Part shown: positions 14,803-33,203 of the stretch, piece by piece
Numbering within the stretch: the stretch's first letter is position 1
Layout: every line of letters starts with the position of its first letter
Source: Verrucomicrobiales bacterium
GTDB taxonomy: Bacteria; Verrucomicrobiota; Verrucomicrobiia; Verrucomicrobiales; DEV007
Reading direction: 5' to 3'
DNA length: 64,000 nt
NCBI GenBank assembly: GCA_029213195.1
Contig: JARGNI010000003.1
Location: forward strand, 1-64,000
Translations under genes and position numbers: made by a program
Notes under the pieces: generated by a model
What the model was told of the DNA's origin: nothing
Databases searched by the model: none
What the model saw: only the letters and a program-made list of their open reading frames with translations

Positions 14803-16308
14803 TCAGGATAGGTCGAGCTTGCGTTTACCATTCGCAGACTTGTCCGCGTGGGTGGCGTGGCGGGCGCGAGTTTTGGCCCAGTGCCGCAGTTGCTCGATGG
14901 ACTCGCTCATGGTGGTGGCGAGAGGGACGGATTCGCAGAGAACTTCTCCGAGGTCGAGCTCGGTGGGTTCTCGATCCTGGGTGAAACAACGATGGAGTGC
15001 TTCGACGAAGGCCGCTTCGATTTCGGCCCCGGTGTGGAGTTCACAGGCCCGGGAAAGGACGACCGAATCGAAGGCGGTTTTCTCGCGACCGTATTTCTCG
15101 ATCACGATGTCCCAGATCGCTGTGCGCTCCTGGTTGTTGGGGAGATCGACGAACCAAAGCTCATCCCATCGCCCCTTTCGGAGCAACTCAGGCGGTAGTT
15201 TGCTGACGTCGTTTGCGGTGGCGACGACGAACACGGGTTTCGTTTTCTCCTGCAACCAGTTCAGCATGGTGCCGAAGACTCTCGCGCTGGTTCCGCCGTC
15301 GGTGCTGGCGTTGGAACCGCCCATGCCGCCGAAGCCTTTCTCGATCTCATCGATCCAGAGGACACAGGGACTGATCGCCTCGGCGGTCTGAATCACGGAT
15401 CGCAGGTTGGCCTCGGACTGCCCGACAAGTCCGCCGAACAACTTTCCCGCATCGAGCTTGAGTAGCGGGATACCGAACACGCTGGCGGTGGCTTTGGCTG
15501 TCAGGCTTTTACCTGTGCCGGGGACTCCGAGGACGAGCATTCCTTTTGGAATGGGTAGACCGTAGTCACGAGCGCTTTGGGTGAAGGCTTCGCGTCGCTG
15601 TTGCAGCCAAGCCTTCAGCGCATGCAATCCTCCAATGTCGTCCAGAGTGGCCGGGGCATTGATCACCTCAATGAGGCCGCCACTCTTCAGTGCATTGGCT
15701 TTCTCCCTCGCCACGACGGCTGCTTCGACATCGCCCTTTTCGACGATGGACAAAGCGAAGGCGTTTTCCGCCTCGATCGTGGTCATCCCTCCGGCCGCTT
15801 CGAGAACAAGTTCTCGCTCAGGTTCGCCGATGGCAGGAAGTTTGGCCGAGTCAGTGATGGCGTCGAGGACAGTAGCAAGGTGCTCTTTCCCGGGTAGATC
15901 AAAATCAATCCGGGTCATCTCGCGTTCCAGTTCCGGAGGAAGCGGCTTCCACACGCCGACCAGGACGATGAGTTTTCCAGCGGACTTGGCGTGGTTGAGC
16001 GTTTCCCGAAGCATCCTGATCAGCAGCGGATCCTTGTCTTCCAGTAATGCGCCGAAGTCGCGGAGGAGAACAACGCAATCGCTGTGAAGCGACTCGATGG
16101 ATTCGAGAGCTTCCACCGGATCGGTGCATCGATGAACGTTTCCGTTCGATGTGTCAATCATGCCGGTCGTGATACTCCAGGCATGAACACCTCTACCGAG
16201 TTCTTCGGCTGCTTCCTTCAATTCAGCTTCAGCCCGAGCCTCTTCAGTAGTGCACAAAAAAAGGCCGGCAAAACCGGCCCTCGCGTAGCGGGTAATGATG
16301 TCTTTCAT
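14803..16308 (-). CDS. Ycf46-like AAA+ ATPase
   Basis: A 501-residue AAA+ protein. The C-terminal half has a full ATPase core: Walker A GVPGTGKS (261-268, K267), Walker B LWIDEIEKG (D320, E321), sensor/arginine region ELLRKGRWDELWFVDLP and a lid. The N-terminal half (1-200) looks like a degenerate second AAA fold (CVVLLRDFGALLE is in the Walker B position). This two-part layout is that of Ycf46-type ATPases known from cyanobacteria, plastids, planctomycetes and some phages; their biochemical role is not established. Its partners here, DUF1257 and DUF2997, are families I recall occurring next to it elsewhere. It starts 6 bp after the 85-residue gene, last in the operon. Confidence 0.88.
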   Translation of the reverse strand: MKDIITRYARAGFAGLFLCTTEEARAEAELKEAAEELGRGVHAWSITTGMIDTSNGNVHRCTDPVEALESIESLHSDCVVLLRDFGALLEDKDPLLIRMLRETLNHAKSAGKLIVLVGVWKPLPPELEREMTRIDFDLPGKEHLATVLDAITDSAKLPAIGEPERELVLEAAGGMTTIEAENAFALSIVEKGDVEAAVVAREKANALKSGGLIEVINAPATLDDIGGLHALKAWLQQRREAFTQSARDYGLPIPKGMLVLGVPGTGKSLTAKATASVFGIPLLKLDAGKLFGGLVGQSEANLRSVIQTAEAISPCVLWIDEIEKGFGGMGGSNASTDGGTSARVFGTMLNWLQEKTKPVFVVATANDVSKLPPELLRKGRWDELWFVDLPNNQERTAIWDIVIEKYGREKTAFDSVVLSRACELHTGAEIEAAFVEALHRCFTQDREPTELDLGEVLCESVPLATTMSESIEQLRHWAKTRARHATHADKSANGKRKLDLS

Positions 16309-16314
16309 GATGAG

Positions 16315-16572
16315 TCAGTCGGTTGAGGTTTCATTGAAGTGGATCCGTTCCCAGCGTAGGCATTCCTCGCGGGACGGGTGGGTGAAAACGACATGACCGG
16401 TGAAGTCGAAGACTTCCCAATGCTGGAATTCGATATTGAATTCCACGTTAGAAGCGCGGCTCACATCGAGAACGCCAATCTCTTTCAGATCGATGATCTC
16501 GGTGTAAAGCCCCGCGCCGGTTCCGTCGGGTTGGAAGTGAATCACTTCCGGGATGGTGGTGGTTGTGCTCAT
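16315..16572 (-). CDS. Small acidic protein of the AAA module
   Basis: An 85-residue acidic soluble protein (EVIHFQPDGTGAGLYTEIID, then VFDFTGHVVFTHPSREECLR). I recognise no family. Its ATG overlaps the DUF2997 stop by 4 bp and its stop lies 6 bp before the AAA start, so it is translationally embedded between two members of the conserved DUF2997/AAA set. The C/A-rich leader for this gene lies inside the 3' end of the DUF2997 gene and includes an AGGA nine bases before the ATG. Confidence 0.65.
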   Translation of the reverse strand: MSTTTTIPEVIHFQPDGTGAGLYTEIIDLKEIGVLDVSRASNVEFNIEFQHWEVFDFTGHVVFTHPSREECLRWERIHFNETSTD

Positions 16573-16775
16573 GATTTCTGTTCCTGTTGGTTGAGGTTGT
16601 TATTTTTCGCAGAGCGGTAGTAATCGCGGCTGCGTTGTTTGCGCCCGACAGTGCCTAGTTCCTCCTCGAGGAAACGGGTCGCCTCCTCGCAGCTTTTGCC
16701 GGTGAAGCCAAGGGCGTCGATGGTGATGGCTCCCTCGGGACTGACCCACACAACGATTTGTTCTTTCGATGTCAT
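16569..16775 (-). CDS. DUF2997 protein
   Basis: A 68-residue protein whose core, VVWVSPEGAITIDALGFTGK followed by SCEEATRFLEEELG, is the DUF2997 signature (beta hairpin, Gly-x-x-Gly/Lys-Ser-Cys, helix). No function is known for the family; I recall it as a neighbour of DUF1257 and Ycf46-like AAA proteins. The start is placed at MTSKEQ (16775), 4 bp after the DUF1257 stop, because the 20 codons upstream lie inside that gene. Confidence 0.8.
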   Translation of the reverse strand: MTSKEQIVVWVSPEGAITIDALGFTGKSCEEATRFLEEELGTVGRKQRSRDYYRSAKNNNLNQQEQKS

Positions 16776-16779
16776 CGGG

Positions 16780-17157
16780 TCAGGCAGCGAGGGTGAGTTT
16801 GATGGAGCCGTCCGTTTCCTGACGACGGGTAACACGGAGCCGCTTCTTCTGCGCCTCGCGGATGGTCTTGTGGACTCCGTAGAGTTGAATCAGGCGACCG
16901 TATTCAGGGCCGACCTCCTTTTCGACATGCCCGCCCCACCAGTCGGTGGTGAGTTCGTAAGCGTCGTTGGTTTCGGAGCGATTCGCGGCGATGTCGTAGG
17001 GACCGCGTAGCCGGATGACAAGATCGCCGTGGCGCGTCTGCTCGGCATAACCGCGGGCTTGCGCATCGCGAAGAAGCTCGACACCGAGTTCGGTGCAGGC
17101 GTCTTCGAGTGCTTCAGCATCGCGGATCTGGGTTTGGATGGTAGTGAAGTGTGACAT
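16780..17157 (-). CDS. DUF1257 (Ycf35-like) protein
   Basis: A 125-residue protein beginning MSHFTTIQTQIRDAEALEDA, the N-terminal signature of DUF1257/Ycf35. The mid-region (DLVIRLRGPYDIAANRSETN) and the Trp pair TTDWWGGHVEK also fit. The family is found in cyanobacteria, algal plastids and PVC bacteria without an assigned activity. Its start is preceded by a C/A-rich leader containing AACCACAACC and CCCAAC and no Shine-Dalgarno sequence. It is the first gene of the DUF1257-DUF2997-85aa-AAA run and follows a strong terminator, so it probably has its own promoter. Confidence 0.85.
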   Translation of the reverse strand: MSHFTTIQTQIRDAEALEDACTELGVELLRDAQARGYAEQTRHGDLVIRLRGPYDIAANRSETNDAYELTTDWWGGHVEKEVGPEYGRLIQLYGVHKTIREAQKKRLRVTRRQETDGSIKLTLAA

Positions 17158-17203
17158 GATGTTAGTTGGGTTCAGGGTTGTGGTTTCTTGAGAAAAGATT
17201 GAA

Positions 17204-17238
17204 TCAACAGGGTCAGATCGATGACCCGACCCTGTTGA
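17204..17238 (-). terminator. Intrinsic terminator after the DUF3150 gene
   Basis: TCAACAGGGTC (17204-17214) pairs with GACCCTGTTGA (17228-17238). On the minus strand the stem is followed by TTCAATCTTTTCT. It lies between the DUF3150 stop (17265) and the DUF1257 start (17157). Confidence 0.75.
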
Positions 17239-17264
17239 GCTGTGGGATAGACTCTCTCGGAGTT

Positions 17265-18290
17265 CTACCCGGCCAGTTGGAGCTTGCGACGCCCGAGCTC
17301 ACCGAAGCGCTCTACCAGCTCGCGAGCATCTTGAGACGCGAGTTCCCGAGCGTGATTTCGGAGATCGGTCAGCCCGGATTCGAGGCTGCGAGTCGCAACC
17401 GAGCTGCTCCGGTAGTCCTCTGCACTCCGGCTAAGAAGTTGAGATCTCACCAGATCGAGTTGCTTCTCCATCTCGGTATCGCTGGCGAAATTCAGGGACT
17501 TGAAGTCATCAATGAACTTTACGAGCCGGTTCAGAGTCTTCTGGTGGACGCCGTCAGTTTTGCCACCGCGCATGGAAGCGAGCATTTCGTCGCAGAGCTG
17601 GGCAGTTTGCTGACGCAGCTCGGCTACGCACTCCCCAACGAAGGTCTCGACGCCTGTTTGGATTTCACGACGAGCCTCGCGGGCGGCATCATGCCGGGCG
17701 AGCCGGACTTCATTCTGCTCGGCGAAGGTGATCAGCTCCATCCCGAGGTCGTCGGGAACGGCGATTTGGAACAAGCGCACCTCGAACGAAAAGCGCGGTT
17801 CAATGAATTCCCGCGAAGGGAAAGCCTCCTGGATTTGCGAGAACAGCGTTTCTTCTTCATCGTAGGTTTTCGCAATTTGCCGGATGGCGTCGCGCCAATC
17901 GATGAGGGCCTGTTCGCGGGTGCGCTCGTAGCCGCGCAGGAATTTCCCGCGAGCGACCTCAAAGTTTCGCTCCTGTGCGTTCAACTGCTCCTGCACATCG
18001 ACCAGTTTTCCGTTGGGAAGGAAGTGGCTGACATTGAGAAACGGAAAGGTGTATTTCTCAATGACGGCATGGGTGCGGCTTTCGACGAGAGCGAGATCAG
18101 CGAGTGCCTCTTTGGGAAGAAGCTTTTTGTGTCCGAGGCTCATGAGTCGATCGCTGACCTGGTCGGGTTCGAGGCCGAGGTCGGCTGCCTTCAGCTTCTT
18201 GTGAAAGCGCGGATATCTGACGCTGGCATTGATCAACACTCCTTCGCGGGTCAGCACAGCGAGGAGGTCAGTATTGGTTTCGGTGTTCAT
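17265..18290 (-). CDS. DUF3150-like helical protein
   Basis: A 341-residue, highly charged and helical protein. The N-terminus (LLAVLTREGVLINASVRYPR, KKLKAADLGL) and central region (FLPNGKLVDVQEQLNAQERN) fit what I recall of the DUF3150 family, whose members are found in phages, plasmids and integrated elements near AAA ATPases; no activity has been established. The C-terminal half is predicted coiled coil. The leader upstream contains two copies of AAACCAACAAA and no Shine-Dalgarno site. Isolated by terminators on both sides, it is probably expressed from its own promoter. Confidence 0.65.
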   Translation of the reverse strand: MNTETNTDLLAVLTREGVLINASVRYPRFHKKLKAADLGLEPDQVSDRLMSLGHKKLLPKEALADLALVESRTHAVIEKYTFPFLNVSHFLPNGKLVDVQEQLNAQERNFEVARGKFLRGYERTREQALIDWRDAIRQIAKTYDEEETLFSQIQEAFPSREFIEPRFSFEVRLFQIAVPDDLGMELITFAEQNEVRLARHDAAREARREIQTGVETFVGECVAELRQQTAQLCDEMLASMRGGKTDGVHQKTLNRLVKFIDDFKSLNFASDTEMEKQLDLVRSQLLSRSAEDYRSSSVATRSLESGLTDLRNHARELASQDARELVERFGELGRRKLQLAG

Positions 18291-18403
18291 CGTATGTTTT
18301 TGGAATTTGTTGGTTTTTGTTCTTTGTTGGTTTTGCCAATTCGGGGGAATTGCTTGTTAGTAGGTTTTGCGATTTCGTGGGTTTTCGGGAAAGGCGGTAT
18401 GAC

Positions 18404-18447
18404 AAAGGCCCGGCACCTCCGCTGTAGTGCGGAAGCAACCGGGCCTT
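18404..18447 (-). terminator. Nested hairpin terminator after the clamp gene
   Basis: AAGGCCCGG (18405-18413) pairs with CCGGGCCTT (18439-18447), and within the loop TCCGC and GCGGA form a second small stem. It lies 30 bp downstream of the DnaN-like gene on the minus strand. The following T-run is weak (TTTGTC). Confidence 0.7.
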
Positions 18448-18477
18448 CGTTACCTGCTTGGTGTTGGTTGGGGCGAC

Positions 18478-19893
18478 TCAGTTGGAGCCGGTGGCGAGCT
18501 TTTTGATGGATCGGAAAAGGGACCGAAATCCCTTCAGTTCCTTCTGATCTTCGCTTCGCTGATCACGGGCTGTGTTTAGCGAGCCGCGTGCAGATTTCAG
18601 CTTTTTGCCTGCCGTGGCGAGTGCTGTGTTGGCTTCGGTAATCCGAGCTTCGAGTTCCTTCATCGGGTCGGAAGTTGGAGGCGATGCTACCGCCTTCTTT
18701 TTTGAGACCTGATTTTTCGCTGGAGACTTCTTCGGTGGTGTTGACCGCTCCGTGGAAACGATGGGATTCATCTTTCGGGGACGCTTCAGCTTTTGCGTAT
18801 CGCCAACCCGGACCGGCATGACAATCATGAGATCGCCTTTCCGCGAAAATTGCAGAGGCGACTGTGGATCGATCATGCTGATCCCGTTCAGCCCGAATCG
18901 GGCCGCCCGCTGGACATAGTCGCGATTGGCGAAGACCACCTGGTTGGGACCATTTACCTTGGCGGGGCCGATGGGATAGAACTGCCAGGGTTCGTCCGTT
19001 GTCTCGCGAGCGAGCAGGGAAACGAGTCCCTTCTCGACGTGAATACCAACGGGCTTATTGCACAGCTTCTTGCCGGGGAGTTTGGGAATGAGATCCGCGA
19101 TGGCTTCGGCAACCTCAGGCGGCGTTTCCACCCGGGATTTGAAGTCAGTCCCCTGAGGTATGACCTGCCGGTAGTTCGGGTAGCTGCCGGAGATGGTTTT
19201 CCCGGACAGTCGCCAGTGCTTGGCATCGATCCGGAAGGGAGTAGTCTCTCCCTTTTCGGTTCCGACCCGCAAGGTCCACGGTGTGGTGTTTGCCGAGTCG
19301 GCGATCTGCTTCCATTTCCACAAAGCGTGGTCAGGAAGGATGACCGAAGACTTCAAGGCGGGAAGATGCATCGAGTTGCTCGAATACAGCTGCCGCCCAT
19401 CAGTCGCGACGATGCGGTGGGCGTTTTTGCCTTTTCCCGAGACATCGAGAAAGGCACCCTGCAGAATGTAGCGAGTCGTATCGCTGGAGGAGCAAGCGAA
19501 CGCCTTGAGTAGGCTGGCGCTCATTTCTGCGGTGAGCGGAATCGGCGTTGCCCGAAACCTGGGTGGCTCGGGAAATTCCGACACCGGTGGTGCCTTGGCA
19601 AGAGACCGAAGCTCCATCGTGTCACCGGCCTTGGTTCCGCGAACTTGATCGCGGAGCACGGTTAGAGGCACAAGAAACGGCTCACACTTCTTCCCAACCT
19701 CGGCTTCAATCGTCAGATCGAGATGAAAGTCGAGATCGCTGGCGCTGAGCTGGACAGTGTTGGTTTTGAGCGGCTCGACCCGGATGCATTGCAGAGCCGG
19801 GAGCGACGCCTTCGGGTTGGCGACTTTCCCGAGACCGACGAGAGCCGGTTTGAAGTCGCCTGCCCGGATTTGGATAGGTATAGGATGATTCAT
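18478..19893 (-). CDS. DnaN-like sliding clamp with basic coiled-coil tail
   Basis: A 471-residue protein. Residues 1-370 follow the bacterial beta-clamp plan: TDGRQL at 164-169 and SYPNYRQVIP at 237-246 correspond to conserved clamp motifs (TDGHRL; G.FPNY..VIP), and the last strand reads DLMIVMPVRV. After a Lys/Pro-rich linker (about 375-415) there is a coiled coil (ELEARITEANTALATAGKKL and onward) absent from chromosomal DnaN, which is about 370 residues. It is therefore a clamp paralogue, not the housekeeping copy. A role in DNA replication, repair or loading of an element-encoded nuclease is an inference. Leader C/A-rich (CCAACC, AACCAAC), no Shine-Dalgarno. Confidence 0.8.
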   Translation of the reverse strand: MNHPIPIQIRAGDFKPALVGLGKVANPKASLPALQCIRVEPLKTNTVQLSASDLDFHLDLTIEAEVGKKCEPFLVPLTVLRDQVRGTKAGDTMELRSLAKAPPVSEFPEPPRFRATPIPLTAEMSASLLKAFACSSSDTTRYILQGAFLDVSGKGKNAHRIVATDGRQLYSSNSMHLPALKSSVILPDHALWKWKQIADSANTTPWTLRVGTEKGETTPFRIDAKHWRLSGKTISGSYPNYRQVIPQGTDFKSRVETPPEVAEAIADLIPKLPGKKLCNKPVGIHVEKGLVSLLARETTDEPWQFYPIGPAKVNGPNQVVFANRDYVQRAARFGLNGISMIDPQSPLQFSRKGDLMIVMPVRVGDTQKLKRPRKMNPIVSTERSTPPKKSPAKNQVSKKKAVASPPTSDPMKELEARITEANTALATAGKKLKSARGSLNTARDQRSEDQKELKGFRSLFRSIKKLATGSN

Positions 19894-19927
19894 GTTGGTT
19901 TTTTAGGTTGGATGTTCAGGTTTCAGA

Positions 19928-20392
19928 TCACTGGTAGTACCCATCGCTCTCACCGAATCCGGTCCTGCCTCGGCGATTCCGAAAATGCCGGAAGCGTCGG
20001 TAGCCGACGAAGGCCAGGTAGAGGACGGCCAGTGAAATGAGGACGGGTGGAACGGCAGAGGCCACGCCGAGGAAATCGGCGAGAATCTGGCCGAGCCAAT
20101 GGCTGCTGCTGGCGAGCTGTTCCAGGACTCGATTGACCGGAGGCAGGAGCAGAACTCCCGCGACCGCAAGGGTGATCGAGAGAAACAGGTTCAGCCGCAG
20201 CCACGCACGGAGCCACCCGCTTCCGCTGAGCCAGTATTCCAGCCGGCAGAAGTGCCAGCCGATCACTTCGGCACCCCGTTCGACCCACGAATCTTCCGTG
20301 AGTTCGAGCCGGGGGCTGGGTGGTTCGACAGGATCCTGTTTCCAGAGCTGTCGAAGTTCTTTGAAGTCGGGGAGTTCAGCGAACGATTTCAT
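19928..20392 (-). CDS. Two-helix membrane protein
   Basis: A 154-residue protein with a soluble N-terminus (about 1-60) and two transmembrane helices (about 68-85 and 110-130), ending in an Arg-rich, Gly-rich tail (YRRFRHFRNRRGRTGFG). No family recognised. Its start overlaps the 3' end of the upstream lipoprotein gene by 17 bp, so the two are translationally linked and may form a membrane complex. Confidence 0.6.
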   Translation of the reverse strand: MKSFAELPDFKELRQLWKQDPVEPPSPRLELTEDSWVERGAEVIGWHFCRLEYWLSGSGWLRAWLRLNLFLSITLAVAGVLLLPPVNRVLEQLASSSHWLGQILADFLGVASAVPPVLISLAVLYLAFVGYRRFRHFRNRRGRTGFGESDGYYQ

Positions 20393-20738
20393 GCGTGGTA
20401 GCGTCGAGGTTTTCTGGATGGGAGTTGGCCTGGAAACGGCGTGCCTGGGAACCGAGGGCCGCGCCGTAGATCAGCGCGAAACCGGCCAGGACGATGAAGA
20501 GCGCGGCGACGCCCTGCCAGATGGCGGCCTGGTCGCTGGCTTTCTCCGCCCTCGCCTCGGTGGTTTCGACCCGGGCCTGCAAGGCCTCGTATCGCTCCTC
20601 GAGAGAAGGTTGGCCGGACAGCCCGAAAGGCAGCCAGGAGTAGTCGCTCTTGCTGCAACTGACCGTGGAGGTCAGCAGAAGCGCGAGAAGTAAGGAAGTG
20701 AGAATCCGCTGAAGTAGCGGGAGTGATGTGGGTTTCAT
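20376..20738 (-). CDS. Small lipoprotein-like membrane protein
   Basis: A 120-residue protein. The N-terminus carries a signal-like helix ending LLTSTVSCSKS, a plausible though not perfect lipobox (V-S-C). A coiled coil follows (RYEALQARVETTEARAEKAS), then a transmembrane helix (VAALFIVLAGFALIYGAAL). The start at 20738 follows a long C/A-rich leader (AAATCCAAACCC, AACCACAAC). The in-frame upstream extension is low-complexity Asn/Pro sequence encoded by that leader and is rejected. Confidence 0.6.
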   Translation of the reverse strand: MKPTSLPLLQRILTSLLLALLLTSTVSCSKSDYSWLPFGLSGQPSLEERYEALQARVETTEARAEKASDQAAIWQGVAALFIVLAGFALIYGAALGSQARRFQANSHPENLDATTHEIVR

Positions 20739-20789
20739 AATGTTGTGGTTTGGATTCAGGTTTGGGTTTGGATTTGAGTGAAAAGGAAG

Positions 20790-20822
20790 AAGGCCGCTCC
20801 CCTGGATCAGAGGAGCGGCCTT
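20790..20822 (-). terminator. Intrinsic terminator after the nuclease gene
   Basis: AAGGCCGCTCC (20790-20800) pairs with GGAGCGGCCTT (20812-20822). On the minus strand it is followed by CTTCCTTTTC. It lies between the nuclease stop (20860) and the lipoprotein start (20738). Confidence 0.85.
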
Positions 20823-20859
20823 CCGGTTGGTGTTGGTATTGTGTGGTTGCTGGGAGCGA

Positions 20860-21711
20860 TCAGAGCCCCGACATCTTTCGGCACTCACGGGAGTAAGGGC
20901 ACCAAGAGCAGTGCTGGTTTGGAGAAGTGAGCCAGCTCTCGTTGGCGATGCCTTCGAGATAGGCTTCGATGAGCCGGAAGAATTCCGCCTCTAGCCGGTC
21001 ACTCATGGGATCGAGTGACGATACGAGGACCTTGGGCTGCTTGGTTTTGATCAAGTAGTGCAGCTCGAATCCCGATTCCGTCTGCCCGGTGGCACTCCGA
21101 TAGAGAGTCCCGTAGGCGGCCAGTTGCGTAGCATGCTGTTCAGGACCACTTCCGGAGCTTGGGGCTCGCGCGGCCGTCTTGTAGTCGACGATCTTTCCGC
21201 CGCGACGGACCAGATCGATGATGCCGACCAGACGGATTCCGAATCGATCGAGGTGGCAATCCACCTCAACCTCGACACCTTCCGGAGTCTCGGAATACGG
21301 AACCGGCGATTCGGCGAAGTAGGTTTCGAGCATCGACCAGGCTTGCGCTTTGGCGTTTGCTTCGTCGCCCTCCTTCTTCCAGGGAACCGACTCGCTTTCG
21401 AGACAGCATTTCCAGTTTTCGTCGAACTCGGCCCGAAGCTGATGGGCGTCGAACGGTTCGCTTTTCCAGCGTGCCCAGTTCAAGGACTTCAGGCACTCAT
21501 GCACCTGCTGTCCGATGAACAAGGCCGGGGCCGTCGGCGTTGCGATCCTCTCCACATATCGGAAGAAGAATTGACGCCGGCAGGTTTGCCAGCATTTCAG
21601 GCGACTCGCGGAGAGGTAGTCCAGTAATCCTGGATTCGAACTCGGCTCCGGGAGAACGTGGAGATTGGATGGGGCCATCTGCCGAGGAGGAACAGGCTGC
21701 GCCGCGTTCAT
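20860..21711 (-). CDS. PD-(D/E)XK nuclease with Fe-S cysteines (Cas4/RecB-like)
   Basis: A 283-residue nuclease. The catalytic fold shows H71, D166 (GIIDL), D176-Y-K178 and QLAAY at 196-200, matching the RecB/Cas4 nuclease motifs. Cysteines at C40 or C44 and at C268, C271 and C277 (CSWCPYSREC) are spaced like the 4Fe-4S cluster of Cas4 and AddB. No helicase domain is present and there is no CRISPR locus in the window, so a stand-alone element nuclease for DNA end processing or recombination is more likely than Cas4. It overlaps the preceding gene by 4 bp, indicating coupling. Confidence 0.88.
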   Translation of the reverse strand: MNAAQPVPPRQMAPSNLHVLPEPSSNPGLLDYLSASRLKCWQTCRRQFFFRYVERIATPTAPALFIGQQVHECLKSLNWARWKSEPFDAHQLRAEFDENWKCCLESESVPWKKEGDEANAKAQAWSMLETYFAESPVPYSETPEGVEVEVDCHLDRFGIRLVGIIDLVRRGGKIVDYKTAARAPSSGSGPEQHATQLAAYGTLYRSATGQTESGFELHYLIKTKQPKVLVSSLDPMSDRLEAEFFRLIEAYLEGIANESWLTSPNQHCSWCPYSRECRKMSGL

Positions 21712-22259
21712 CGGCCACCTCCATTCGTCGCAGGACGATGCCCGTTCCGGTTTCCATTCCGACCGTTGGATTTCCCCGCCATCTCAAGGAGGGCGGTGAT
21801 CAGTCCGGAGGCCGAGAGCTTGTTGAGCTGACGGACTGGTTTGCTGAACAGTTGGTGCGAATGCTCGTCGAGATCGGCATCGCTCAGCCCGAGCTGCTTC
21901 TGCAGATCGAGGATCAGCGTTCGCTGCTTCTCGGAGCATTGAAAAGCACCGTTGGTGGAGTGACTGCCGTTGTTTCCGTGATTGTGATTTCCGTTCGACG
22001 AGTGGATGGAGTGGCCGTTGCCGTTCGGGCTGGGCTGCTGGACATCGGTGACGCCGTAGTTTCCTTCAGGGACGAATCCGACGTGCTCCGCCAACTGCGA
22101 GTCGACGCTCGATTGGAGGACATGATAGAGCTTCTCGATCTCGGAAGGAATCGCTTCCAGGTCGTGAAGCTCGACTTCGACGGATGCCGATGCGGAAATC
22201 GACGAGTAGTGTGGAATCCCGCATTTCTTCGAATAATGGGTCAAAAGGGTGATTGGCAT
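21708..22259 (-). CDS. Unknown protein with Asn/Gly/His-rich linker, partner of nuclease
   Basis: A 183-residue protein in three parts: an N-terminal domain (ITLLTHYSKKCGIPHYSSIS to about residue 75), a low-complexity linker (NGNGHSIHSSNGNHNHGNNG, about 80-105), and a C-terminal helical domain (SEKQRTLILDLQKQLGLSDA, then LNKLSASGLITALLEMAG) before a second Asn/Gly-rich tail. The helical domain resembles a small module I recall at the C-terminus of phage recombination proteins, which read 'Q...I..L....G....L......V..L....AS.LI..L'. It is coupled to the nuclease by a 4-bp overlap. The start is placed at MPITLL, preceded by a CAACCAACC leader. A role in single-strand DNA handling is a guess. Confidence 0.55.
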   Translation of the reverse strand: MPITLLTHYSKKCGIPHYSSISASASVEVELHDLEAIPSEIEKLYHVLQSSVDSQLAEHVGFVPEGNYGVTDVQQPSPNGNGHSIHSSNGNHNHGNNGSHSTNGAFQCSEKQRTLILDLQKQLGLSDADLDEHSHQLFSKPVRQLNKLSASGLITALLEMAGKSNGRNGNRNGHRPATNGGGR

Positions 22260-22306
22260 GATTTTGGTTGGTTGAAGTTGAAGACCGGAGGAGCTCGGTC
22301 GTGAGC

Positions 22307-22507
22307 TCAATCCGATCGTTTGGGTGAAGGCATTTCACGCGGGTATTGCTCGCTTGCGGCGGTCCATCCGGGAGTTCCGGACAGAGCACCAACGAGCAGT
22401 TCCTCGATCAGTTTCGTCATCGGCATGCGACGACGTTTTGCCTCATGGAAGGCAGCACAGATCAAAGGACGCGAAATGACCGGCTGATAATGCGTCGGTC
22501 GCGCCAT
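22307..22507 (-). CDS. Ribbon-helix-helix-type small protein
   Basis: A 66-residue basic protein: a strand (HYQPVISRPL) followed by two helices (ICAAFHEAKRRRMPMTKLIE and LLVGAL), the layout of RHH/CopG regulators. It is the first gene of the leftward module and probably regulates it. Upstream lies a palindrome (22533-22549) that could be its operator. The leader contains AACCAAA without a Shine-Dalgarno sequence. Confidence 0.55.
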   Translation of the reverse strand: MARPTHYQPVISRPLICAAFHEAKRRRMPMTKLIEELLVGALSGTPGWTAASEQYPREMPSPKRSD

Positions 22508-24233: not shown

Positions 24234-24512
24234 ATGCTACGACGTTACAGAAACTGCATCGGCCCCCAGGTTCGCCGCCTTCGCATGGAAAAGACGCTGA
24301 CTCAGGACCAGTTTGCCGCCCGCCTCCAGTTGGCTGGGTTGCATTCCCTCGACCGGGTCGCCGTGGCCAAGGTCGAATCACAGATCCGCAGTGTATTCGA
24401 CTACGAGATCGTCATCATCGCTGCCGAGCTTGGCGTGGAACCGGAGAAGCTCTTGCCATCGATTCGCTCGCTCAAGTCCGATTTGGATGATCTGATCGCC
24501 GGGGAGCGTTGA
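24234..24512 (+). CDS. XRE-family helix-turn-helix regulator
   Basis: A 92-residue protein. Residues 8-70 have the Cro/CI-type fold: IGPQVRRLRMEKTLTQDQFA (helices 1-2), VAVAKVESQIRS (recognition helix) and YEIVIIAAELGVEPEKLL (helices 4-5). The only rightward gene between about 13.4 and 36.7 kb, it is divergent from the zinc-ribbon gene. The two palindromes between them are the natural candidates for its binding sites. A similar arrangement is common in mobile elements. The start at 24234 is the only ATG that keeps the first helix. Confidence 0.8.
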   Translation: MLRRYRNCIGPQVRRLRMEKTLTQDQFAARLQLAGLHSLDRVAVAKVESQIRSVFDYEIVIIAAELGVEPEKLLPSIRSLKSDLDDLIAGER

Positions 24513-24651: not shown

Positions 24652-26019
24652 TTATCTTGGCTGCTGAGAGTGGGGAGTGCCCATCTCAAACTGCTTCGGA
24701 GAAGATTGGTATACCTTGCCGCCCTTCAGCTCGATCAACTCTCTCCCTATCAATGAGGCGAGTACCCGGTCACGTTCCGGCTGATTCAGCTTCTTGAAGG
24801 TTCGACCTAGCTCAGAGCGAGTGAGGCCGGGACGCTCACAGATACGCATAAAGACCGCAAGCTCCCGCTTCGACAGGCCTTCCGTGTCCGGGACGTGACT
24901 CACAGAAATTGGAAGGAGTTTTGCAGTTGTCTTCAGGTGCCGAGTATAAAGACGTTTGGCGAGTTCGAGCCCGTAAAAAGCCGCCACTAGATCTGGTTTT
25001 GGTTTCTTGTCGAGGACGGTGAACAGCAGTGCGAAGCGAAGTGCGAGCTCTACTACCCGAGAAGGGCGAATCAGGGAAAGCTCTTTTGTTCCGTTTTCCC
25101 ACTCTTGCGCCGCTGTGAGAAATTCATGTACTGGCTGAAAGGGCTTCGACTCCACTGCGAAAGTAGTCGATCGCAGCATGGCGTGGTGACGCATTACGAA
25201 GAGATCCAGACATCGTCGATGAATTTCACCTGCAACGCTCCCATCTGGAGCGAGCGCCGCAATTCCCGGTCTGTCTGACTCAAGGATCAGAGTGGGCAAT
25301 CTGGTGATCCAGGGATTTTCTTCCACTATTTTCCGTGCTTCCGTTCGCTCCACCTGCCAGTAGAAACTTGGGGCTGCTCCTGAAAATTCTCCGACACTTG
25401 GTCCCAACGGAGCATTCGAACTCAATGCATGTTCAAATCTGATTGTGTTGTCGGGCGATAGCTGCCGCAAGGCGCGACATGGACCGACAGGTGGAGTCGT
25501 TAGCAAGACATGGTGATCAAAAGGAACCCGCGGAAACGGTATTTCCAAAGAGGCCGAGGTGATTCGTTCCGACACCTTGTCAGCATATACCGCTTTCGCC
25601 GTATCAACCGTGTTGGCTACACGGTCGGCTATCGGATGGTGTGATTCATTTTCTGCACCATCTTTCTGTTCTGAACCTTGGTGAAGATTTACTTTGGCAA
25701 ACAACCGCATCGTATCCTGGAAGTCCTCCACCAGAAAACGGATTGGGATCCGGGGCCAGACTGCGTCCGTCTCAGGAGTTATCAGTAGCAACGAAAACGG
25801 CGGACGGATGATGCCGAGTGTGCTGTCGATTTCAAATGCGCCTCCAACCGAATGACCAAACCCTGCCAGCAGTGAAGCAAATGCTATCTCATGGTCGATC
25901 TGAAACTCGCGAGCAAAGCGGTCAACCAGATCGTAGATGCCCAAAAGACGAAACGAGCCGATTCCCCCCGCCCCTTCACCAGGAGAGAGAAAGTCCGGGA
26001 TCTCGATTTGGGTGTCCAT
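24652..26019 (-). CDS. Element protein, possible degenerate helicase/primase relative
   Basis: A 455-residue protein. The N-terminal part (FASLLAGFGHSVGG, then FSLLLITPETDAVWPRIPIR) sits where a DUF3987-type ATPase would have its P-loop, but no GKT/GKS is present. The middle (SRVVELALRFALLFTVLDKK) resembles the helical segment of that family, and the C-terminus (ERPGLTRSELGRTFKKLNQP) is a winged helix. The next gene upstream (513 residues) has the same overall plan, so they may be distant paralogues. A non-catalytic role in element replication is an inference. Confidence 0.5.
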   Translation of the reverse strand: MDTQIEIPDFLSPGEGAGGIGSFRLLGIYDLVDRFAREFQIDHEIAFASLLAGFGHSVGGAFEIDSTLGIIRPPFSLLLITPETDAVWPRIPIRFLVEDFQDTMRLFAKVNLHQGSEQKDGAENESHHPIADRVANTVDTAKAVYADKVSERITSASLEIPFPRVPFDHHVLLTTPPVGPCRALRQLSPDNTIRFEHALSSNAPLGPSVGEFSGAAPSFYWQVERTEARKIVEENPWITRLPTLILESDRPGIAALAPDGSVAGEIHRRCLDLFVMRHHAMLRSTTFAVESKPFQPVHEFLTAAQEWENGTKELSLIRPSRVVELALRFALLFTVLDKKPKPDLVAAFYGLELAKRLYTRHLKTTAKLLPISVSHVPDTEGLSKRELAVFMRICERPGLTRSELGRTFKKLNQPERDRVLASLIGRELIELKGGKVYQSSPKQFEMGTPHSQQPR

Positions 26020-26422
26020 CCATTTCCGAGTGTTCCCCGAGAATCTGAAATTTCCACCAAAATCTAGCGACCGCAGGATACTCGGTTGTCAGTGAAGTCA
26101 GTGCGTCAGTTTAGATTTACGAAGTCAGGAGATGGGGCTGTTTTCCTTTTCTGAACGCCAAAATTCCTATGGAGGAGTTTCAGACCATTCAATGCGCCAT
26201 ATCGCTGCATTTCTGCGACTTTTTGCAACCATGTGCCCAACAACCATAGTCGACCGCTCCGAGATCCATCGATAGAAGACGGGACGGCTCTCAAGTGACG
26301 GAAATCTACGAGAAAAGATCGGATTGATTCTTGTCCCGCCCCAAGAGAAATGGCGATTGTCAGTCCTGGTCGGCTGTGAACCGCAAGTCTTCACTGACAG
26401 TTGGGCTCACACAGATGCCTTG
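26020..26422. other. 403-bp intergenic stretch with 11-bp inverted repeats
   Basis: No convincing gene is visible. TGTCAGTGAAG at 26087-26097 is repeated inverted as CTTCACTGACA at 26389-26399, bracketing about 300 bp. Three TCAGT words occur in a row at 26089-26110. It could hold a promoter for the 455-residue gene, a remnant insertion, or nothing of note. Confidence 0.35.
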
Positions 26423-27964
26423 CTAGTTGTCTCCTATCCCCGCCAACTCGCTTCGCCCTCGCTCCGTCGTGCGGAGAATGCCCTTTTCGAACTTCTGAAC
26501 CCGGTTGGTCACAATCAAATGTTCCAGAACCGGCTCAAGAATAGATTTCCGCTGTATGTCGTACTTTCGTTGTAACTCGCGAAACCGACAAGGTTCCGAC
26601 CGATAGAGCTTACGCAGCATCTTCCGGCCTTCTTCTTCCAGTCGTTGCAGTTTCCCGGTATCAAGCCCAGTCTCCACTAGATTGAGGTGAGTATGCAGCG
26701 CGGATTCGGCGAGATGAATTGCCGCAGGAAGGAGGTCCTCGGTCTTACGTCCTTCACAGAGCTTCTCAAGTGACCACCACATGGCCGCGGGGAGGTGAAT
26801 GAAATTTGCCGCAAACGGCTTTAGGTGTGGCTCTACTTCACTGATCTGCTGGTGAAACTTGTGCTGCTCATGAAAGAACTTTTCGGCTGTCTTATTATCC
26901 AGGATGGGAGCAATACCGGGAGCATCGAGTCTACGCAGGCGCAGAACACCTTTCACGGCTTTTCGAAATTGCTCGTAGCCGCGTCGGATCACGTCAAAAT
27001 CGAGAGTGTTCCCTCCGTCATCTTCCTTGGCGGTGGGATCTACCAATAGCGTTCGACGCAAGAGTCTGTCACTCTCCGGGGTGCTGATCCACTGAGCAAG
27101 GTGAGTTCGGTCGGCAACCGAATACAGGATCCCTCGACTAGGTCTTGCTCCTACTTTGCTCGTGGCCCGGGTGCTGCGCCCGGTAAGTAGTCCTTCAACA
27201 ACCTCCGCGACTTTGTCAGGGTTTTTGGCGAAGACTCTGGCGAGGAGGCGACTTTCGGAGTCCAGGACCAGCGGTGACTGCCGATCAACTTCGCCCATTC
27301 CCTGTTGCAGCAGTTGCGAGTCAGGATTTTCCAGGAATACAAGTGGCTCGCGCAAACAACGTGCCTCGTTGTATTCAAGCATCGTTTCGTAGTTGATCTT
27401 GGCGAAAGGGCTCTCCTCGGCCATACGAGTGTCACGCGCTCGTTCCTCCTCTGTCATTGAGTAGTCCCGCTTGAAGTTCTCGTAGCGATCAACGGGATGA
27501 GACGACGAAACCATCTGGGCTGACTTTTGGGCCTGTCCAGTCGCGTGCTTTAATTCCGTCTCTACACGAACCTCATCAACCACGGCTCGGCGACCTCCGT
27601 AGTCTTTGCAATGCGGATCAGCCAGGGAGGTGGCAAGGCGATTTCGCAACTTGGGATCGACTCGAGCACTGTAGTCGATGAGGTCCACCTGGAGGAATCG
27701 CAGCGGGGCGAACAGCAGCTCGGTCAAACGTGCTTGTTCCGCTGAGTCGCCGCCGACGCTGATCATGCTTGATCCGATCGGGTGAACTTCTCCACCGAGA
27801 CCTACGAGCCCTCCGCGTGGCCCTGCCAATGCGGCTAGGAAGTTAGTGGCTTGGATCGCAGTCTGCACCTCCGAGTTGTCGGACAGCACCGCAAGGGCGG
27901 AAACAGCTTCTCCGAAATCAGGATTCTCTTTTGTGGTTTGCAAGGGGTTGGCGATAGTTCCCAT
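26423..27964 (-). CDS. Element protein, 513 residues, helical with C-terminal winged helix
   Basis: A 513-residue protein of unknown family. The N-terminus (TAIQATNFLAALAGPRGGLV) has a Gly-rich loop without a canonical Walker Lys. Residues 355-420 (WWSLEKLCEGRKTEDLLPAA, IHLAESALHTHLNL) resemble the C-terminal helical part of DUF3987-type proteins. The end (LYRSEPCRFRELQRKYDIQR) looks like a winged helix. It follows the primase zinc-finger gene by 78 bp in the replication operon. Same plan as the 455-residue neighbour. Confidence 0.5.
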   Translation of the reverse strand: MGTIANPLQTTKENPDFGEAVSALAVLSDNSEVQTAIQATNFLAALAGPRGGLVGLGGEVHPIGSSMISVGGDSAEQARLTELLFAPLRFLQVDLIDYSARVDPKLRNRLATSLADPHCKDYGGRRAVVDEVRVETELKHATGQAQKSAQMVSSSHPVDRYENFKRDYSMTEEERARDTRMAEESPFAKINYETMLEYNEARCLREPLVFLENPDSQLLQQGMGEVDRQSPLVLDSESRLLARVFAKNPDKVAEVVEGLLTGRSTRATSKVGARPSRGILYSVADRTHLAQWISTPESDRLLRRTLLVDPTAKEDDGGNTLDFDVIRRGYEQFRKAVKGVLRLRRLDAPGIAPILDNKTAEKFFHEQHKFHQQISEVEPHLKPFAANFIHLPAAMWWSLEKLCEGRKTEDLLPAAIHLAESALHTHLNLVETGLDTGKLQRLEEEGRKMLRKLYRSEPCRFRELQRKYDIQRKSILEPVLEHLIVTNRVQKFEKGILRTTERGRSELAGIGDN

Positions 27965-28444: not shown

Positions 28445-30463
28445 TTATCCGTGTTGTTGGGATTCCTCTGAAGACCTCGACTTCAGCGCCAATCCTCGAT
28501 AGCCTCTCCCTCGACCTCCATCACCCTGTAAGTTCTCAGTACGCCGGACACTGTCACCGAAGCGCGACTCAATGATGGATTTCATCTTCCGATAGAATTC
28601 GGCCTGCGTTACAGCATGGAGGCCGAGAGACTCGCAAAAGCCAGAATATGCATCAAGGAGCTGCTGGCTCGACATCTCGCGTTCATTGTGGGGGACGAGG
28701 CACTCGTCTGCGAAGAAGGCCACTGAGTCTGAGGCGCGAACTCGGCCATCGACCCTGGCCTCTTGATGGGGTGTGAGCGCAATCGTCCCATACTTATCAA
28801 TATCTGAGAACGCGAGCAATGCTCCATCCAGCATCCACTTGAGAATGCCGGGTCCCTCTTCTCGAATCAGTTTCTCCTCGAACTTCTGGATAATCTTGAA
28901 CGGCTGTCCCGAGTCGTGAAAGGGAACGATGACCAATCGCCGTTTCCATGCGCTTGCGTCTTCGTCGACCCGCAGGAGGAGAGGGGAGTTGCTCGTGATG
29001 ATTACGTGAAAAACGCCCTCGATATCTTCGAATTCATTCGAGTTCTTGCTCTCGGTGCTTAGACGGTCACCACCAGTTAGCGCCTTGAGGCGCGTTGCCG
29101 AACTTGAGCGGAGGAAATCGGGATCGACGTCGCGGCCCGCCAACAAACGCTTTCCACGATATCGGCTCGTTTCAAAACGACTCCCCAAGTGGTCGGTACG
29201 GAGTTCAGTAACGAGCTTCGAACCCAGAATTTGGTCGAGCAAACGAGTAACAACTCCCTTTGAAGTTCCCCCCGGCCCTTCCAGCAGCAGAATCTTCTGG
29301 AGCTCATTGTCACCCGCTAGTACTAGCCCGAACATCTTTTGCAGCAAGCGAATGTCATCGGGCTTGAGAAATGGAGCTAACACCTCGTCGTGGAATCGCG
29401 GACAAGTTGCGTTGACTTCATAGTCGACACATGACTTTGCGATGAGGCGATCTCCCGGGAAAAATGGCAACTCACAAATCTGGGCCTGCATCTCATCAGA
29501 GGGGAGGATCAACGCGACCTTCGTGTTGTTGGCTGCGAAGCTACGCCAGCCCTGCGGAGTAATTGCGCGATAAAACTCACATGCCACTTCCGCTTCCAAC
29601 TGACCTCGGACGGAGTTGATGACCGTGGCTTTTTTCTTGAAGTGGACGGTATCGAGATCGTTTTCGCGGGCTAGACGGCCCAGGTAATCCGCAATCAGTT
29701 TTTTAACAATCTGATTGGGCATCACCATCCAAATTCCTTCGGGTTCCTCGTAATGAAAGAACTGCTGGGTCTCCAGAGCATAAAGGATTTCTCGCTCGGT
29801 TGCGATCCAGCCAGCCACGAACGACTCGTTCAGCTGAAGCCCGCCCTGCTTTCCTTCTAAGACGGGAGGTCCAAATTCTTCAACGAGATCGTTGAAAGGA
29901 TCAACACGCCCAGGAACTTTGACCCAGCCCTCCGGCCATTGAATATCTCCGAAGGGTACCTCCAGCAGAGGATCGGATGAGAAGATTTGATACGTGACGC
30001 CCTCGGGATGCTGCCCATCGACGATCGTGATGCCACGTCCGGCGCGCCACTCCCCGATCTCTTCTTCAGACTCGTTTACCAACTTGCTCACGCCCTCCGG
30101 GTATTCCCCTTTCAGTCGATACCAAAGGTTACACCCTCGGGATGCTTGGGACGTTACCGTGGAGCAGAGTTGGGGGTTACAGGCTCGGAACTGCTCAAAA
30201 GCAGCATCGTCATCAAAATCGATGGAAACGAGGTTGCCCGACTTCGGCCCGGTAAGGACGGCAATATTGTTGCTCTCGAGGAGTTGAATGTGTTGGGGGT
30301 CGGACATCTTTTCTTGCCCGAATTCAGTGTAGCCTTTCTGGATCGGTTTCTTCGTCCCCCATTTGGTAGGAACCAAGACGGTGCCATGGCCAAAGATTTC
30401 GCGAATCTTCGCTACACGGGTTGGAGGGCCTTGCGGAAGGCCTTGATGGATATTACTGTTCAT
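28445..30463 (-). CDS. PrimPol-SF3 helicase replication protein (P4 family)
   Basis: A 672-residue protein of the phage/plasmid primase-helicase type. The N-terminal primase-polymerase domain (about 15-170) has the acidic motif SIDFDDD (80-86, D82 and D84), a second motif at SRGCNLWYR and a third at VDGQHPEGVTY. The C-terminal SF3 helicase has a Walker A-like loop GPGGTSKG (396-403, K402), a Walker B position at RLLAGRDVDPDF (439-450) and motif C with N492 (VIITSNSPLLL). Such proteins initiate and drive replication of plasmids, P4-like satellites and integrative elements. Motif II lacks the usual His, so polymerase activity is not certain. Confidence 0.85.
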   Translation of the reverse strand: MNSNIHQGLPQGPPTRVAKIREIFGHGTVLVPTKWGTKKPIQKGYTEFGQEKMSDPQHIQLLESNNIAVLTGPKSGNLVSIDFDDDAAFEQFRACNPQLCSTVTSQASRGCNLWYRLKGEYPEGVSKLVNESEEEIGEWRAGRGITIVDGQHPEGVTYQIFSSDPLLEVPFGDIQWPEGWVKVPGRVDPFNDLVEEFGPPVLEGKQGGLQLNESFVAGWIATEREILYALETQQFFHYEEPEGIWMVMPNQIVKKLIADYLGRLARENDLDTVHFKKKATVINSVRGQLEAEVACEFYRAITPQGWRSFAANNTKVALILPSDEMQAQICELPFFPGDRLIAKSCVDYEVNATCPRFHDEVLAPFLKPDDIRLLQKMFGLVLAGDNELQKILLLEGPGGTSKGVVTRLLDQILGSKLVTELRTDHLGSRFETSRYRGKRLLAGRDVDPDFLRSSSATRLKALTGGDRLSTESKNSNEFEDIEGVFHVIITSNSPLLLRVDEDASAWKRRLVIVPFHDSGQPFKIIQKFEEKLIREEGPGILKWMLDGALLAFSDIDKYGTIALTPHQEARVDGRVRASDSVAFFADECLVPHNEREMSSQQLLDAYSGFCESLGLHAVTQAEFYRKMKSIIESRFGDSVRRTENLQGDGGRGRGYRGLALKSRSSEESQQHG

Positions 30464-33113: not shown

Positions 33114-33203
33114 TGGCGGAGGGAGTGGGATTCGAACCCACGGTAGGTTGCCCTACACTCGATTTCGAATCGAGCGCCTTAAACCGGACTCAGCCATCCC
33201 TCC
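33114..33203 (-). tRNA. tRNA-Ser (anticodon CGA)
   Basis: Complete cloverleaf on the minus strand: acceptor arm GGAGGGA (5', ending at 33203) pairs with TCCCTCC, discriminator G and encoded CCA (33114-33116). The D-loop region, a CTCGA/TCGAG anticodon stem with loop TTCGAAA (anticodon CGA at 33165-33167), the long variable arm (GTAGGGCAACCTAC) and GGTTCGAATCC T-arm are all present. The long variable arm and CGA identify it as a serine tRNA for UCG. Its 3' end faces the putative element. Confidence 0.97.

Follow-up and report, generated by a model that had tools for sequence, protein, structure and literature searches.

Organization and recurrence of an eleven-gene module

We analysed a window of 64,000 nucleotides (positions 1 to 64,000 of contig JARGNI010000003.1, assembly GCA_029213195.1) from a Verrucomicrobiales bacterium, in which eleven open reading frames (ORFs), all on the minus strand, fill positions 14803-22507 and combine a Ycf46-type AAA+ ATPase and its small companions with a sliding-clamp paralogue and a PD-(D/E)XK nuclease. 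An earlier note, made from the DNA letters alone, had proposed these leftward genes as one compact module, and this description held, with the set recurring in the same order elsewhere. The genes are as follows, with loci "with room" defined below.

14803-16308, minus: P0001, Ycf46-type AAA+ ATPase (Pfam PF00004, 2e-28, 99.9 bits)
16315-16572, minus: P0002, "p85", small core protein (conserved in 47 of 48 loci with room)
16569-16775, minus: P0003, DUF2997 (PF11211, 1.8e-12, 47.3 bits against a gathering cut-off of 24.1)
16780-17157, minus: P0004, DUF1257, the Ycf35 family (PF06868, 3.7e-13, 50 bits against a gathering cut-off of 22.2)
17265-18290, minus: P0005, DUF3150 (PF11348, 2.3e-20, 73.5 bits against a gathering cut-off of 24.9)
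18478-19893, minus: P0006, sliding-clamp (DnaN) paralogue with a C-terminal coiled-coil extension of ~100 residues (phrog_947, 3.3e-16; PDB beta clamps, 1.4e-7)
19928-20392, minus: P0007, membrane protein of 154 residues (from sequence; homologues in place at 14 loci)
20376-20738, minus: P0008, predicted lipoprotein of 120 residues with one further hydrophobic segment, from an ATG (from sequence; homologues in place at 14 loci)
20860-21711, minus: P0009, PD-(D/E)XK nuclease, Cas4/RecB-like, with four conserved cysteines (PDDEXK_1, 2.9e-34, 119.5 bits against a cut-off of 22)
21708-22259, minus: P0010, nuclease partner of ~200 residues (ATG at 22259; a longer TTG start at 22310)
22307-22507, minus: P0011, small basic protein of 66 residues, putative ribbon-helix-helix (RHH)-type regulator and first gene of the module (homologue in place at 24 of 44 loci with room)

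The AAA, DUF1257, DUF2997, DUF3150 and PD-(D/E)XK identities, which had been named in the earlier note, were thus borne out by Pfam scores above the cut-offs. A scan of GTDB contigs returned 80 loci, nearly all from Verrucomicrobiota and relatives, and we counted the companions of DUF1257 in the loci with room: upstream where the contig offered 7 kb or more on that side (n = 44), downstream where it offered 4 kb or more (n = 48). The order DUF3150-DUF1257(Ycf35)-DUF2997-p85-AAA was kept around DUF1257 loci across Verrucomicrobiota, with DUF2997 (48/48), p85 (47/48) and AAA (45/48) downstream. Clamp, nuclease and DUF3150, whose recurrence beside AAA-DUF1257-DUF2997 had been named as the point on which a DNA-processing module would stand or fall, were found upstream in 26, 32 and 43 of the 44 loci, respectively, as were the P0010 family (30/44) and the RHH gene (24/44); the clamp and DUF3150 also occur in phage contigs. 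A near-complete order of RHH-P0010-PDDEXK-TM-TM-clamp-DUF3150-DUF1257-DUF2997-p85-AAA (TM, transmembrane) was present in about 12 loci, including L067, L068, L070, L071, L073, L075, L077, L079 and L144, with a few missing one small gene. These loci are related by descent (DUF1257 identities from 99% to ~55%), and the counts are not independent events.

DUF1257 is rare and patchy in the phylum sample (10/289 genomes), and the five-gene order recurs around its hits. The contig that bears the module also has a second clamp in G066, G101, G139 and G178, and a PDDEXK_1 nuclease in G066, G101, G118, G139, G178 and G255. In each of the ten phylum-sample genomes (4-7 Mb) there are just two to six matches to PDDEXK_1 and one to three to the clamp, so that linkage within 10 kb by chance is estimated at ~1%. 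Because the one-strand, in-order set reappears in dozens of contigs, the eleven-gene grouping is far beyond chance.

A nuclease and its overlapping partner with a predicted Red-beta-like domain

Across 35 alignment rows, the nuclease P0009 conserves D166, D176 and K178, H71, Q196 and Y200 (Q-x3-Y motif), and the cysteines C44, C268, C271 and C277; catalytic motifs and four cysteines of this kind are the pattern of Cas4-like Fe-S nucleases. It scored below the Cas4 equivalog (TIGR00372, 36 bits against a cut-off of 65), and no cas genes were present among the eleven module genes or ten neighbours. The stop of P0010 overlaps the P0009 start by 4 bp (21708-21711), the coupling that the earlier note had pointed out.

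In the AlphaFold2 (AF2) model of P0010, a disordered N/G-rich linker joins a beta-hairpin/helix domain to a helical one, with predicted local distance difference test (pLDDT) values of ~77-92 in both domains. The helical C-terminal domain matched the C-terminal domain (CTD) of lambda Red-beta in 6m9k, 8tg7 and 8tfu, which were solved with lambda exonuclease and with the SSB tail (probability 0.94-1.00, E of 0.06 and above; Z 8.1-8.4 over ~60 residues, the next unrelated row at 5.7). In a viral library, the fold search placed Essential recombination function (ERF) proteins on top. P0010 itself had no profile match to annealing proteins of the Red-beta, RecT or Erf groups, Pfam and PHROG scans of all its relatives gave scattered weak matches only, and tblastn for P0010 in phage records gave none. 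The Red-beta CTD is the domain that contacts exonuclease and SSB in lambda, and since P0010 is itself coupled to a nuclease, the match carries weight; judged from the model, we regard this domain as Red-beta-CTD-like, a Z value for a helical domain alone not being proof.

A diverged sliding clamp and the five-gene core

The PHROG match of P0006 is annotated as "DNA polymerase processivity factor" (phrog_947); no Pfam match was obtained, and the DnaN equivalog was missed (TIGR00663, 44.3 bits against a cut-off of 137.65). This sub-threshold score, together with the host's own DnaN on another contig (G000:C9), marks P0006, by its sequence, as a diverged clamp paralogue, in line with what had been proposed from the letters.

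P0001 carries a catalytic AAA module at ~213-440, preceded by an N-terminal region of 210 residues, and matches phrog_8638 over its full length (4.6e-129). Its motifs are intact, with Walker A K267, Walker B D320/E321 and the arginine fingers R377/R380 conserved, and it groups with the CDC48/FtsH-like classical AAA proteins, outside the clamp-loader clade. It shares 42% identity over 96% with a cyanobacterial plasmid AAA adjoining DUF1257/DUF2997, the copy used for this comparison. The 85-residue p85, encoded between DUF2997 and the AAA, has no Pfam family; it also follows DUF2997 directly in Pseudomonas, Aeromonas and Rhizobium phages, and it is a core member conserved as well as DUF2997. The DUF2997 gene probably starts at the ATG at 16775; an alternative GTG at 16835 would give 88 residues.

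The AF2 model of DUF1257 reached a pLDDT of 95.2; its fold search gave no Foldseek match at E<=1e-3, and the best VIA hit (Z 6.0, to an adaptin appendage) was uninformative. A PDB sequence match of DUF1257 to a designed repeat protein was judged to be chance, as no stretch passes alone. We also rejected a ubiquitin-like reading built on a C-terminal GG of DUF2997 and DUF1257 plus a JAB protein: the window proteins lack the GG, and it occurs in just 32/86 and 40/90 sequences. Separately, DUF3150 of a different, canonical type is present four times in one genome (G117:C1; L063, L064), with E values down to 1e-91 and near-equal scores for three of the genes.

Mobile-element, phage and plasmid settings

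Copies of the module are carried by integrative elements and phages. In locus L149 a tRNA-Thr is followed by an integrase, a D5 primase, a zinc protein and then the module, and no direct repeat was found at the tRNA-Thr; integrases lie near module copies in G101, G139, G178 and G255, and several genomes hold multiple copies. Upstream, the window copy is accompanied by a tRNA-Ser, a D5/DUF5906 primase-helicase and, as judged by eye, an excisionase-like ORF.

24652-27964, minus: two element proteins (455 and 513 residues) of unknown family, recurrently upstream of the module (five Verrucomicrobiales loci)
28445-30463, minus: D5/DUF5906 primase-helicase neighbour (DUF5906, 2.4e-10; PHROG DNA primase, 2e-48)

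The primase-helicase, which adjoins the module in L074 too, likely belongs to the host element. An opposite-strand helix-turn-helix regulator lies near the module at 24234-24512, with homologues near copies in other genomes. A protein combining WGR and an ATP-dependent DNA ligase occurs near the AAA core in 20 loci (e.g. L105:14844-15908) and was not seen beside the window copy; RadC occurs in 15 related loci, and a primase and an SSB-like gene (by eye) in others.

Many phages and plasmids encode the Ycf46-type AAA, as do 475 viral-contig stretches. In isolated phages of Pseudomonas, Aeromonas and Rhizobium, the replication genes are immediately preceded by AAA-X-DUF1257-DUF2997-p85, and a Rhodobacter phage has AAA-X-DUF1257-DUF2997 in this position, with no p85 match. 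In the viral-contig scan, which used a DUF3150 profile after one round of extension by viral members, the clamp was found in 9 of 80 loci, all nine of which also contain DUF3150-like, DUF1257, DUF2997, p85 and AAA genes, and one of these clamp-bearing loci (L175) contains a portal gene. A tblastn search for DUF3150 in phage records returned none, though the profiles detect it in viral contigs. Plasmid Rts1 and a Pseudomonas psychrotolerans plasmid carry DUF3150 in an array of SSB-RecT-lambda exonuclease-MoxR AAA+-DUF3150-VWA.

Several further settings of the AAA were recorded. In each of two viral contigs (L187:13446-14432 and L168:16848-17771), the AAA module is followed downstream, at a distance of a few kb, by a reverse transcriptase (RVT_1, 2e-22 and 3.5e-21). 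The 14-kb Streptococcus satellite phage Javan368 (L029:11980-13557) encodes a full-length Ycf46-type AAA without DUF1257/DUF2997. On the Treponema succinifaciens plasmid pTRESU01 (L033:9246-11401), a VgrG/baseplate contractile-injection or phage-tail cluster encloses the AAA together with a radical-SAM-like 4Fe-4S protein, and on a Pseudanabaena plasmid (L038:6864-12808) GrpE and Hsp70 lie directly upstream of DUF1257, followed by DUF2997 and the AAA.

The small genes of the module

Of the two membrane proteins named in the earlier note, the 19928-20392 product stood, while the reading of 20376-20738 was corrected, from its sequence, to a signal peptide of lipobox-like type with a single hydrophobic stretch in addition. 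This predicted lipoprotein is co-conserved with the next membrane protein in 14 loci. The gene proposed as an RHH regulator, P0011, is conserved in place; the protein had no match in Pfam, PHROG or NCBIfam and thus no ribbon-helix-helix profile support, and the identity is plausible by place.

Proposed function and alternative explanations

We consider it probable that the module is a homologous-recombination and repair unit of mobile elements and phages, because its genes recur in order on one strand, P0010 matches the Red-beta CTD and the nuclease residues are conserved, and because of the RecT-exonuclease-DUF3150 plasmid arrays, the phage clamp loci, the ligase, RadC, primase and SSB-like neighbours, and the integrative context. 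The conserved gene set and order, the intact ATPase and nuclease motifs, the fold match and the phage and mobile context are direct observations. In the proposed mechanism, P0009 would resect DNA, and this Fe-S PD-(D/E)XK nuclease and P0010 would work as a Red-like pair for resection and annealing, in which P0010 couples the nuclease, SSB and single-stranded DNA. The private clamp would tether the nuclease and P0010 either to nicked DNA or to the replication fork of the element, and the Ycf46-type AAA+ with DUF1257, DUF2997, p85 and DUF3150 would act as an ATP-driven remodeller that may assemble or strip a nucleoprotein complex or displace host proteins from it, allowing the element to repair, recombine and complete its replication.

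Several points weigh against this proposal. P0010 matches Red-beta only in the partner-binding CTD, with no recognisable annealase core, and profile comparison of P0010 with plasmid RecT proteins gave no match. The Pfam family of P0009 is PDDEXK_1, not YqaJ/lambda-exo, and its PHROG exonuclease matches are weaker. The clamp was not in range in 18/44 loci and the nuclease was not detected in 12/44; in cyanobacteria and some plasmids the core lies beside ferredoxin or a radical-SAM activase instead. At the window copy, no PF00589 integrase was among the matches listed for contig C79, and no direct (att) repeat was found at the tRNA-Ser (33114-33203). Joint action, a physical complex, the DNA substrate and the AAA+ client are inferences.

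Part of the same evidence could be read as replication support, in which the AAA core would load, unload or remodel the private clamp for primase-driven replication independent of the host clamp, with the nuclease and P0010 as repair accessories. The private clamp does adjoin the core in Verrucomicrobiota and phages, and D5 primase, DnaG-type primase, SSB-like and ligase genes are neighbours, but the AAA falls in the CDC48/FtsH-like classical group and not in the clamp-loader clade, and the core persists without a clamp in range in those 18 loci, which leaves this explanation rather unlikely. Defence and Fe-S or cofactor assembly are weaker rivals of recombination and repair. The Ycf46 core might insert or repair a metal or Fe-S cofactor, for which the nuclease's 4Fe-4S cluster would be a candidate, with the DNA genes as clients or neighbours: the nuclease has four conserved cysteines, the cyanobacterial ferredoxin gene fed7 lies beside duf2997-ycf35 (PMC4284462), radical-SAM-type 4Fe-4S proteins lie beside the AAA in Paenibacillus, Paenarthrobacter and Treponema plasmids, and NorQD (PMC9976466 and PMC13036017) is a precedent for MoxR/VWA pairs serving other enzymes. 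We judge this improbable, as the core is kept in the 12 loci where no nuclease was detected, phage loci carrying the core showed no Fe-S activase motif, and the recurring neighbours are DNA-metabolism genes. An anti-phage defence system on mobile islands would suit the patchy distribution in the phylum sample, the weak PADLOC matches (IetA-like AAA and Cas4-like nuclease) and the AbiEii-family gene near several copies; yet phages themselves encode the AAA core and the clamp, the IetA equivalog cut-off is missed by a wide margin (NF042959, 67 against 510 bits), and the module contains no protease such as IetS and no toxic effector, so that we give defence very little credence.

Returning to recombination and repair, a broader and more tentative extension is that Ycf46-Ycf35(DUF1257)-DUF2997-p85-DUF3150 might be an unrecognised multi-subunit AAA+ machine for DNA recombination or replication complexes, of phage and mobile-element origin, joined in this module to a private clamp and a Red-like nuclease, and later domesticated as the cyanobacterial and plastid ycf46/ycf35. 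Both genes are retained in algal plastids and cyanobacteria, and the finding that, in phages and Verrucomicrobia elements, their families share one conserved unit with a Red-like nuclease pair and a clamp provides a testable hypothesis that they form a DNA-recombination/replication remodelling machine. Papers treat Ycf35/Ycf46 and DUF1257/DUF2997 as unknowns, in agreement with the earlier note, which gave Ycf46/DUF1257 no accepted function, and a plastid survey regards ycf genes as functionally uncharacterised (PMC5940233). In the open-access literature searched, no description of the module was found, consistent with its proposal as an undescribed system, nor any paper on a DUF3150 module. 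The recombination logic is of a known kind and the module composition is new. Beyond the earlier note, our analysis adds p85 as a core gene, the Red-beta-like domain in P0010 and spread by integrative elements and phages; it also recognises a small nuclease partner with such a domain and shows DUF3150 connecting two kinds of AAA+ modules.

Comparison with known systems

As in lambda Red/RecET (SynExo), a PD-(D/E)XK-fold nuclease is here translationally coupled to a Red-beta-CTD-like partner in phages and mobile elements, whereas the module nuclease is Cas4/RecB-like with Fe-S cysteines, P0010 is without a recognisable annealase core, and a private clamp and an AAA+ complex are added. The SSB-RecT-exonuclease-MoxR-DUF3150-VWA arrays of conjugative plasmids such as Rts1 likewise have DUF3150 next to an AAA+ ATPase, following an annealase-exonuclease pair; the module differs in having a clamp and, where the arrays have MoxR and VWA, the Ycf46-type classical AAA, DUF1257, DUF2997 and p85. 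With cyanobacterial and plastid Ycf46 and Ycf35 the module shares the DUF1257 and DUF2997 families and the AAA, which is ~40% identical to copies on cyanobacterial plasmids; there these genes are linked to ferredoxin or other genes, with no clamp, nuclease or DUF3150 in the neighbourhoods examined. The catalytic AAA module resembles that of CDC48/FtsH-like unfoldases, from which the module AAA differs in its family-specific N-terminal region and in its partners.

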